From: Bacteroidaceae bacterium
GTDB taxonomy: Bacteria; Bacteroidota; Bacteroidia; Bacteroidales; Bacteroidaceae
Direction: 5' to 3'
DNA: 64,000 nucleotides
NCBI GenBank assembly: GCA_017557005.1
Contig: JAFZFZ010000073.1
Span: 1-64,000, forward strand
The position numbers and the translations under genes were made by a program. Positions 36,168 through 46,355 of the stretch are shown here, in pieces. Under the pieces are notes generated by a model, which was not told where the DNA came from, did no database searches, and worked only from the letters and a program-made list of their open reading frames with translations. How positions within the stretch are numbered: the stretch's first letter is position 1; each line of letters starts with the position of its first letter.

Positions 36168-37106
36168 ATGGCATTAACAGCAACTGATTTCAACTTCCCC
36201 GGTCAGAAGGGAGTGTATCACGGCAAGGTACGTGATGTGTACAACATGGGCGACAAGCTTGTGATGGTAGCCACCGACCGCATCTCTGCGTTCGACGTAG
36301 TATTACCCAAGGGCATCCCTTTCAAGGGTCAGATGCTCAACCAGATTGCGGCAAAGTTCCTCGATGCTACTACTGACATTTGCCCCAACTGGAAGCTCGC
36401 TACTCCCGACCCTATGGTTACCGTAGGTGTAATGTGTGAGGGATTCCCCGTGGAGATGATCGTACGCGGCTACCTTTGTGGCTCTGCATGGCGCGCTTAT
36501 AAGAGCGGTGTGCGAGAGATCTGTGGTGTAAAACTCCCCGAGGGCATGCGCGAGAACGAGCGTTTCCCCGAACCCATCATCACTCCCACTACAAAGGCTG
36601 AGATTGGTGAGCACGACGCAGATATCTCTAAGGAAGAAATCTTGGCAAAGGGCCTCGCTACTCCTGAAGAGTATGCATTGCTTGAGCAGTATACACTTGC
36701 TCTCTTCAAGCGCGGTACCGAGATGGCCGCTGAACGTGGTCTTATCCTTGTAGACACTAAGTACGAGTTTGGTAAGCACAACGGTACCATCTACCTCATG
36801 GACGAGATTCATACTCCCGACAGCAGCCGCTACTTCTATAGTGAGGGCTACCAGGAGCGCTTCGAAAAGGGTGAGCCTCAGAAGCAGCTCTCAAAAGAGT
36901 TTGTACGAGAGTGGCTCATGAGCAATGGTTTCCAAGGTCAGGAGGGTCAGCAGGTGCCCGAGATGACCGACGAGATCGTTACCGGAATCAGCGAACGCTA
37001 CATCGAACTTTATGAGCACATTACTGGTGAGACCTTTGTGAAGGAGAACACCGAGGACATCGCAGCACGTATCGAGAAGAACGTGACTGAGTGGCTCACA
37101 AAATAA
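36168..37106 (+). CDS. purC: Phosphoribosylaminoimidazole-succinocarboxamide synthase (SAICAR synthetase)
   Basis: A 312-residue enzyme that joins CAIR and aspartate with ATP in step 7 of de novo purine synthesis. The N-terminal [36 protein letters not shown] segment, [23 protein letters not shown] and [12 protein letters not shown] are diagnostic. The 312-residue length is that of the long PurC type (yeast Ade1 and Bacteroidetes). It is the second gene after the PhoH-like ATPase and ends at a strong terminator. The purM gene lies 25 kb further on, so purine genes are scattered. Confidence 0.95.
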
Positions 37107-42419: not shown

Positions 42420-43079
42420 TTATTTCTTGACAGGACGTATGGTGTGACCATCACAACGGTCACTATTTATCGTGTAGTAGTTCTTCTTGTTGAATCCCAT
42501 ACATACCTCTAATTCGTAATCGCCACCGTAGAGCGTTGAAGACATATAGCATCCCTGCGTACCCTGGCTAGTAAAGAGATCCTCATATTGTGAGCCTGCA
42601 GCAGGAAGGAAGATACTATTACCATTACCACTTACCTTATAGCCATATACACCATTAACTGAGGTCCATTCCCACTCGCAGCACTCCATAAGCTCCTGCA
42701 TTTCAGCCTGAGTGGGCATACGCCAATCCTCCCCCCACATAATTTGAGCAATGTCGTCCGAAGGGTCAAGGACTATTTTTTCATCCTTGCCGTTATACTT
42801 GATCATCTCACCTGTACTATCATTATGCCACTTGTAGCGGGTCCAAATGCATGAATCCTTTTCCTCGGGATCACCCCATGCATAATAACCACCATACTCT
42901 TCCGGAAATTCTGCACCAATATTACAACAAGCCCATTTGACAGACAAGCCGAGATCTACTGCATGCATATGCTCCTCCTCACCACGAGGGATGTCATATG
43001 TGTTAATTTCATCTTGAGAGCAAGAAGTCAGAAAGATTGACATTACAAGAGCTAATACCGAACATACTTTCTTATTCAT
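42420..43079 (-). CDS. FISUMP/DUF1566-like lipoprotein
   Basis: A 219-residue lipoprotein (lipobox LTSC, Cys20). The mature protein shows the pattern common in Prevotella and Fibrobacter surface proteins: AVDLGLSVKWACCNIGA, GGYYAWGDPEEKD, WRMPTQAEMQEL and the final HTIRPVKK. This is a lectin-like or formylglycine-like domain (FISUMP, TIGR02145-type) of unknown function. It is monocistronic, with a promoter box at 43118-43125. Confidence 0.82.
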   Translation of the reverse strand: MNKKVCSVLALVMSIFLTSCSQDEINTYDIPRGEEEHMHAVDLGLSVKWACCNIGAEFPEEYGGYYAWGDPEEKDSCIWTRYKWHNDSTGEMIKYNGKDEKIVLDPSDDIAQIMWGEDWRMPTQAEMQELMECCEWEWTSVNGVYGYKVSGNGNSIFLPAAGSQYEDLFTSQGTQGCYMSSTLYGGDYELEVCMGFNKKNYYTINSDRCDGHTIRPVKK

Positions 43080-43461: not shown

Positions 43462-43695
43462 TTATCTCGGCCTTTTTTTACAGTTTTTTATCACACGGCC
43501 CTTTTTCGTGTATTTTTCCTCCTCTACAATCACATTTTTGGCTCCACATAGCGGACAAGAAGTTTCAGAGCATGTACCACATTGAACGTTTCCTTTTTTT
43601 GCATGGGCCAAATAATCCACAATATGCCGTATCAATAAAAATAGACATATCGCAAATATTAGACCTACTAAAAAATGCTGAAACATATTATCCAC
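43462..43695 (-). CDS. FeoB-associated Cys-rich membrane protein
   Basis: A 77-residue protein with one N-terminal span (FLVGLIFAICLFLLIRHIV) and a cytoplasmic tail with five Cys (QCGTCSETSCPLCGAKN), like the small Cys-rich protein found behind feoB in Bacteroidetes. It may bind Fe(II) or a cluster next to the channel; this is inferred from context. It starts 67 nt after the feoB stop. Confidence 0.8.
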   Translation of the reverse strand: MDNMFQHFLVGLIFAICLFLLIRHIVDYLAHAKKGNVQCGTCSETSCPLCGAKNVIVEEEKYTKKGRVIKNCKKRPR

Positions 43696-43762: not shown

Positions 43763-46240
43763 TCATAGAAGCAATGCCACCTTATACACAACAAAAGCTA
43801 CAGCCCAAGCCAAGAAGGTAGTATACATTGCTGTAAATATAGCCCAACTCCAGCGTCCAGTTTCTTTTTTGATGGCAATAAGCGTCGCCAGACACGGGAA
43901 ATAGATTAGAACAAATATCATATATGCCAACGCTGCAGCAGGAGTCGTGACAGTCTGCAGGGCTGCCGCTATTTGCGCCTCACTTTCTACAGTTCCATCA
44001 ACCTCTTGATTTGCATAAAGAACACCAAGCGTACTTACGATCAACTCCTTGGCCCCTATTCCACTAACAAGACCAATACCCATTTTCCAATCGAACCCTA
44101 GTGGTGCAATCGCCGGTTCTATCGCTTTACCTATATAACCAATATACGAATGCTCTTGCTGTTCGGCCGGTGTGCGATACTCACTACTTCGAGGATAATA
44201 TCCGAGGAACCACACCACAATAGAAGCAATAAGAATAACACCACCCATTTTCTTCAAATACTCATACCCTTTATCCCATGTATGCTTGAAGATTACCCTC
44301 CACACAGGCTGACGATACGGAGCAAGTTCCATCACATAAGGAGCCTCATCACCACGCATCAAAGTGCGGCTTAACAGTCGCGCCACAAGCACAGCAAGAA
44401 TTATACCAGTAAGATAGAGTCCCATAAGAACTAGTCCCGAATGATGAGGAAAAAAGGCTGCCACAAAAATAATATATACCGGCAATCGAGCACTACAAGA
44501 CATCAAGGGAGTAACAAGCATCGTAATAAGCCTTCCTTTCCGACTCTCAATCATACGCGTAGCCAAGATAGCAGGCACATTACATCCAAATCCCATAATG
44601 AGTGTGATGAACGATTTTCCATGTAACCCCATGCGATGCATAGCCTTATCCATAATAAAAGCCGCACGCGACATATAGCCTGAGTCCTCCATCAATGAGA
44701 TAAAGAAGTAAAGGATCAAGATATTAGGAAGAAACACTATCACTCCCCCAACACCACCTATAATGCCATCGACCAACATATCTTTTATGGGGCCATCAGG
44801 AAACAGGTTTTCTATAAGCACGCCAGCCTGTTCTACGAGCCATTCTATCCCCTGCATCGGATACTCACCCAACACGAAGGTGGCCTCAAACATGACAAAC
44901 AAAGACAACAAGAAAATAACTACACCCCAAACCCGATGCGTCACAAGACGATCAATTCGCTGAGCAAAACGCAAATTAGGTTCACCTTCAGGATGAGGAG
45001 CTTCGATATAGGTTTCTTTTAGAGCTCCTTGCACAAAACTCTGCTTTGCTGTGCGTAAAGCATCGGACATCTTTTCACCCGTAAGACGATAATAACGGGC
45101 CTGCTCCTTATCACGTAACGAAATGACTGCAGCGCTATTAGGCATTTTTTGACGTACAAAATCCTCTATTGCGGCATCTCCATCAAGCAATGCGATAGCA
45201 ACAAAACGAGTTGAATAGCGATAACGTGTATTTACACTCTTCCATATCTCAGTACGAAGCACTTCGATACTCTGTTCCAATTCATTCCCATGATAAATAT
45301 GAATATGGCGATATGCATGCTTCTTATATCGAGTATCAAGAGTATGGTCTCGGGTAAAGTCCGCCAGATGTTCCGAATCATCATCTGCATGAATGATACT
45401 ACGATGCCATTCCTGCAACTCGCGCATCACCTCTTTATTGATTTCTCCCTCATCGTCAAGAAAATCTGCTCCTTCGTAAATATTAATAGCCAAATGAAGA
45501 AGATGTTCCATTCCCTCTTTCTCAGGACTGATGATTGGCACAACTGGAGTACCCAATAGACGGCTCAACATTTGGCTATCAAGTCGAGCCCCCTGCGCCT
45601 GCATTGCATCAAATCTATTAAGCGCAACTATTACACGCAGGTTCATATCAAGCAACTGCGCCGTCATCTGCATTGTTCGCTCTATATTTGTAGCATCCAC
45701 AACACTGATAACCACGTCAGGAGTCTCATCTACGAGGTATCGCCTTACCGTCGAGGTATCAATCGTAGGAGATGTCAACGAATAGGTATCAGGCAAATCC
45801 ACTAAATGTAAATGATAATCCTGGAACATTCGTTCACCTTTACGCAAATCACCCTCTACGCGGCTATTTCCATCCAGTGCAGTACGAAACAGCATATCCT
45901 TTCCTGATAGCGGCTGACCTACCAGCGCTATATCTATTTGATGACGACGTCGATGAGCCAGTTCTTTCAGAGCCTCAGCACTCACCTCATTCACGCCCTG
46001 TTCGCGAGCCGCCTCCTCATAGGTCAACACCTCTATCATTGAAGCTTCAGGCAATATAATCTCAGAGCGTTCACCCTCAACATCAAGGCTGATACTTCCT
46101 GCATTCGGATCTATACCCAATACTTCTATATATATACCTTTGTACAATCCGGCATCAACAGCACGTCTTCGAGCACTTCCATGCCCTTTAACCTTGACAA
46201 TGCAGCCCTTTTGACCAATATGCATTTCGGATATACGCAT
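43763..46240 (-). CDS. feoB: FeoA-FeoB fusion, ferrous iron transporter with divergent G domain
   Basis: An 825-residue protein. Residues 1-72 are a FeoA-type SH3-like domain (MRISEMHIGQKGCIVKVKGHG), then the FeoB GTPase region (about 98-260), then the membrane channel (about 420-825) with two Gate-like repeats (FGCNVPAILATRMIESRKGRLITMLVTPLMSCSARLPVY; GAKELIVSTLGVLY). The G domain departs from family consensus. P-loop GQPLSGKD has Asp for the Ser/Thr that binds magnesium, G3 reads DLPD instead of DLPG, and the switch I Thr segment (GVTV in typical FeoB) is missing. G4 is ALNRFD. The channel motifs are intact. GTP hydrolysis is therefore doubtful. The promoter box is at 46287-46294, and AAGGAG lies directly before the ATG. 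Confidence 0.93.
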   Translation of the reverse strand: MRISEMHIGQKGCIVKVKGHGSARRRAVDAGLYKGIYIEVLGIDPNAGSISLDVEGERSEIILPEASMIEVLTYEEAAREQGVNEVSAEALKELAHRRRHQIDIALVGQPLSGKDMLFRTALDGNSRVEGDLRKGERMFQDYHLHLVDLPDTYSLTSPTIDTSTVRRYLVDETPDVVISVVDATNIERTMQMTAQLLDMNLRVIVALNRFDAMQAQGARLDSQMLSRLLGTPVVPIISPEKEGMEHLLHLAINIYEGADFLDDEGEINKEVMRELQEWHRSIIHADDDSEHLADFTRDHTLDTRYKKHAYRHIHIYHGNELEQSIEVLRTEIWKSVNTRYRYSTRFVAIALLDGDAAIEDFVRQKMPNSAAVISLRDKEQARYYRLTGEKMSDALRTAKQSFVQGALKETYIEAPHPEGEPNLRFAQRIDRLVTHRVWGVVIFLLSLFVMFEATFVLGEYPMQGIEWLVEQAGVLIENLFPDGPIKDMLVDGIIGGVGGVIVFLPNILILYFFISLMEDSGYMSRAAFIMDKAMHRMGLHGKSFITLIMGFGCNVPAILATRMIESRKGRLITMLVTPLMSCSARLPVYIIFVAAFFPHHSGLVLMGLYLTGIILAVLVARLLSRTLMRGDEAPYVMELAPYRQPVWRVIFKHTWDKGYEYLKKMGGVILIASIVVWFLGYYPRSSEYRTPAEQQEHSYIGYIGKAIEPAIAPLGFDWKMGIGLVSGIGAKELIVSTLGVLYANQEVDGTVESEAQIAAALQTVTTPAAALAYMIFVLIYFPCLATLIAIKKETGRWSWAIFTAMYTTFLAWAVAFVVYKVALLL

Positions 46241-46294: not shown

Positions 46295-46355
46295 CCCCAA
46301 ACTTCACACCCCTGCAATACCTAAAAATAGGGAAATTCCCAAATACCATAAAAAA

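Follow-up and report, generated by a model that had tools for sequence, protein, structure and literature searches.

A FeoAB protein with a putative pseudoGTPase domain and a conserved iron channel in a clade of Bacteroidaceae

We find that a FeoAB fusion protein encoded in the window, by which we mean the whole stretch of 64,000 nucleotides analyzed here, lacks the catalytic motifs of its GTPase domain and retains its membrane channel. The protein is probably best explained as a FeoB iron channel in which the G domain has turned into a pseudoGTPase, folded, possibly nucleotide-binding and non-hydrolyzing, and we put the probability of this reading at roughly 0.6. The same type of FeoB is found in eight species of one Bacteroidaceae genus.

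The protein combines FeoA, FeoB_N, FeoB_Cyto, two Gate and FeoB_C domains, with all FeoB domains above the Pfam cut-off, and matches TIGR00437, the equivalog model for FeoB, over its full length (533 bits, cut-off 315.65). Automatic annotation thus labels the degenerate protein as a normal FeoB, which should be taken as a warning. The N-terminal FeoA fusion, already noticed in the initial annotation, is confirmed by Pfam; it is ordinary in Bacteroidaceae and, together with the placement of the protein in the corresponding clade (100/100 support), identifies a FeoAB of this family. The features of the locus are as follows.

43462-43695, minus strand: small Cys-rich membrane protein (FeoB-associated type), 67 bases downstream of feoAB; weak match to PF12669 (22.4 bits, cut-off 27)
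43763-46240, minus strand: feoAB fusion gene, 825 amino acids, putative pseudoGTPase type; from the ORF, Pfam domains, TIGR00437 and G motifs
43766-44965, minus strand: membrane channel domain, two Gate domains and FeoB_C, with Cys553, Cys582 and Cys783 kept; Pfam and site conservation
44966-45475, minus strand: helical cytosolic domain, residues 256-425; Pfam FeoB_Cyto
45476-45934, minus strand: G domain, residues 103-255; Pfam FeoB_N, 121 bits, and an NFeoB fold in the full-length model
45608-45619, minus strand: G4 NRFD, residues 208-211, base-recognition motif kept; motif alignment
45788-45799, minus strand: G3 DLPD, residues 148-151, with Gly replaced by Asp; motif alignment
45818-45865, minus strand: switch I/G2 region, residues 126-141, GVTV missing; motif alignment
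45896-45919, minus strand: G1/P-loop GQPLSGKD, residues 108-115; motif alignment, with ligand roles from the Streptococcus thermophilus equivalents (PMC3153494)
46016-46240, minus strand: FeoA domain, residues 1-75; Pfam FeoA, 34.8 bits over residues 1-71
46315-46330, minus strand: upstream element CTATTTTTAGGTATTG adjoining a TATCTTTG (-7-like) box; several sister genes are preceded by it too

We compared the G motifs with those of canonical FeoB proteins. G1 reads GQPLSGKD for canonical GNPNxGKT, G3 reads DLPD for DLPG, and the GVTV segment of switch I is absent, the window protein having six residues fewer here than canonical FeoB and its relatives three fewer. These three lesions had been described in the initial annotation and are borne out by our alignment, which adds an overlooked exchange of the P-loop Asn for Leu and seven further species. 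In the NFeoB of S. thermophilus, Asn11 binds K+, Thr15 and Thr35 bind Mg2+, and Gly56 touches the attacking water; the T35A mutation abolishes GTPase activity (PMC3153494). The Asn11 equivalent, Asn111, has become Leu in all eight species, with loss of the K+ ligand position. The Mg2+ ligand corresponding to Thr15 is likewise lost, Thr115 being replaced by Asp in the window protein and by Asn in its relatives, and the second known Mg2+ ligand, the switch I Thr equivalent to Thr35, is gone along with GVTV in 8/8. The P-loop change falls at the position of Ras S17N. In G3, Gly151 (equivalent to Gly56) is Asp in all eight proteins, and the position of Asp148 is occupied by Asn in seven of them. 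The P-loop Gly and Lys (Lys114) and the NxxD of G4 are kept throughout, with Lys or Arg at the Met position of G4 as in many G proteins, and G5 is variable. Among the G1 to G5 motifs that are intact in FeoB, G1, G2 and G3 are thus lost in every member of the group and G4 is retained. In a GTPase fold, non-conservative changes at key motif positions such as these are one mark of a pseudoGTPase, and we strongly infer from them that catalysis has been lost in the G domain. Guanine nucleotide may still be bound.

The relatives were found by scanning one genome per species and searching the genus. All seven carry GQPLSGKN and NLPD and are 76-81% identical, with open frames. The motif losses are a real trait of the clade and neither chance nor assembly error, because they are shared by genomes that were assembled separately, with every frame open. 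Alignment with Prevotella FeoB proteins had been proposed as a check; the next relatives proved to be canonical FeoAB proteins of the Phocaeicola/Bacteroides type (51-55% identical to the window protein), not those of Prevotella in particular. In a maximum-likelihood tree of 47 proteins, the degenerate type has a single origin (100/100 support) and a stem branch of 1.18 changes per site nested inside the Bacteroidaceae FeoAB clade. A sample of 399 genomes of the family contained no further member. In another subclade of the same genus, seven genomes have a distantly related FeoB whose motifs are intact (GQQNSGKT).

We next consider conservation, with near-invariant sites defined against 95 canonical FeoB sequences. 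In the membrane domain, 86 of the 91 such sites are kept by all eight proteins and five are altered; in the G domain, the number kept is 21 of 39. The pore cysteines Cys553, Cys582 and Cys783 and the Gate motifs of a FeoB pore are retained. Taken with the loss of the ligands in 8/8, this gives good support to the original suggestion of a damaged GTPase site above an intact channel. It is from the conserved channel, as our sole basis, that we infer continued Fe2+ transport through the pore. The altered G1 segment ALVGQPLSGK and the altered G3 segment LPDTYSLTS are identical at the amino-acid level in the eight species and vary synonymously at 9/10 and 9/9 codons, respectively; the altered P-loop and G3 are therefore under purifying selection. 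The pN/pS values of 0.20 for the G domain and 0.09 for the membrane domain are rough, because synonymous sites are near saturation. Set against canonical pairs with the same membrane-domain identity, the G domain is less well conserved (0.76 versus 0.92), and switch I, its fastest-evolving part, much less so (0.63 versus 0.94). Switch I was thus freed from constraint, whereas the altered P-loop and G3 became fixed. Evolving faster than in the matched pairs, the G domain may be partly decaying.

A profile search of the assemblies found one FeoB_C gene in each genome with the degenerate type except G007. Other PF02421 matches in the window's own genome were rejected as a second FeoB, there being a single FeoB_C match. 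The second, canonical FeoB of G007 (L151) lies on a 6.3-kb contig (C64), where the gene adjoining feoB duplicates a gene found elsewhere in G007 (100% and 77%) that has one copy in the genus's other genomes. Given this extra copy, at 77% identity, the contig is most likely contamination, and we rejected this FeoB as well. The search for a normal FeoB that had been called for thus returned no other candidate. The genomes with the degenerate FeoB are 67-92% complete, and it is very unlikely that a canonical copy is hidden in all of them. Iron may enter by another route, since most of these genomes have a ZIP-family transporter; Nramp gave no match over the cut-off in the genus.

A full-length AlphaFold model shows a well-formed G domain (Z about 31 against the NFeoB crystal structures 3tah and 4non, and rmsd 1.1-1.7 against isolated G domains). 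The alignment behind the full-length model consists mostly of canonical sequences, and a model built from the degenerate sequences alone did not recover the fold (pLDDT 39). The models are therefore compatible with the NFeoB fold and do not demonstrate a nucleotide pocket.

The Cys-rich partner reported to follow feoB is present, with its weak PF12669 match, and small ORFs of a similar kind follow canonical feoB at three other loci (L015, L023 and L039). Upstream, the element CTATTTNTAGGTATTG is an imperfect palindrome that adjoins a TAnnTTTG box before several degenerate feoB genes; feoB genes of Phocaeicola and Bacteroides have a Fur-like TATTTAAAAACAATCTAAATA in its place. The conserved element and the small partner suggest that it continues to operate as a feo locus. 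We rejected the element as the mark of a genome-wide regulon, since at the stringency used its own genome yielded just one other site, which had one mismatch. Elsewhere in the window, PurC (36168-37106) is 96-99% identical across the subclade, compared with 57-72% for two other genes against one relative, and is thus either very constrained or recently exchanged. At 42420-43079 on the minus strand lies a small ORF that resembles a lipoprotein and weakly matches FISUMP/Lcl_C.

The G domain could also neither bind nor hydrolyze nucleotide and serve only as a scaffold keeping the helical domain and FeoA attached to the channel, with the pore constitutively open or gated by FeoA. The missing Mg2+ and K+ sites and the freely varying switch I fit this idea, but a bare scaffold would not seem to need the P-loop Gly/Lys and G4 NxxD kept in 8/8, nor amino-acid sequences frozen in G1 and G3, and we regard it as unlikely. 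That slow hydrolysis persists by an altered, Mg2+-independent or trans-supplied mechanism would be in line with the retention of Lys114 and with the canonical Bacteroides FeoAB, which is already very slow and not stimulated by K+ (PMC8980893). Yet in the S. thermophilus protein, removing just the switch I Thr is enough to abolish activity (PMC3153494), and here several required residues have gone together, making persistent hydrolysis highly improbable.

Still less probable is a protein that no longer imports iron and acts as a sensor or as a carrier of another metal. The long stem branch and the five changed membrane-domain sites could be read in this way; the pore cysteines, Gate motifs and 86/91 sites are retained, however, the small Cys-rich partner has been kept, and the proteins are nested among FeoAB. 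The initial proposal of a regulatory protein or another metal consequently finds no support. A gene on its way to becoming a pseudogene is hardly credible: four genomes of the genus, 62-79% complete, gave no FeoB match, but FeoB is present in 8 of about 12 subclade genomes, near what completeness predicts, all copies are open, pN/pS is well below 1 and the motifs are frozen.

For a FeoB channel with a pseudoGTPase domain, we envisage a G domain that would be unable to hydrolyze GTP and may still bind guanine nucleotide. Fe2+ would move down its gradient via the Gate pore, which would be held permissive, or have its gating set by nucleotide occupancy or contact with FeoA, and not by hydrolysis. 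We give even odds to the specific claim that this lineage imports ferrous iron without GTP hydrolysis, using the G domain as a nucleotide-binding gate or as a FeoA docking scaffold. If so, hydrolysis would not be needed in principle for FeoB transport. Against our preferred reading, catalysis is reported to be essential for uptake in characterized systems (PMC10353542). Published work debates whether FeoB is a transporter or a GTP-gated channel, and a clade of gut bacteria that forms a natural test of the need for GTP hydrolysis therefore makes the question testable. Here, a FeoB without a catalytic site, under selection and the sole FeoB found, would separate channel function from hydrolysis without engineered mutants.

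We found no papers on a pseudoGTPase FeoB in the open-licence literature, and three known systems allow for comparison. The S. thermophilus NFeoB has the G-domain fold in common with our proteins, but its Asn11, Thr15, Thr35 and Gly56 are all substituted or deleted in this clade. The Bacteroides fragilis FeoAB belongs to the same FeoB clade and has the same FeoA-G-helical-channel architecture (PMC8980893). Its NFeoAB hydrolyzes GTP, if slowly, whereas the clade described here is without the Mg2+, K+, switch I and G3 residues. In the B. fragilis fusion, hydrolysis is slowed by FeoA, which has been proposed to keep the channel switched on (PMC8980893); this suggests by analogy how hydrolysis could become dispensable. 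Septin pseudoGTPases have a related GTPase fold, have lost catalytic residues and are still used by the cell, and class II pseudoGTPases keep nucleotide binding (PMC10731463). Septins are filament subunits, whereas here the domain is part of a membrane channel, and unlike in the septins, the losses in this clade include the Mg2+ ligand of the P-loop.
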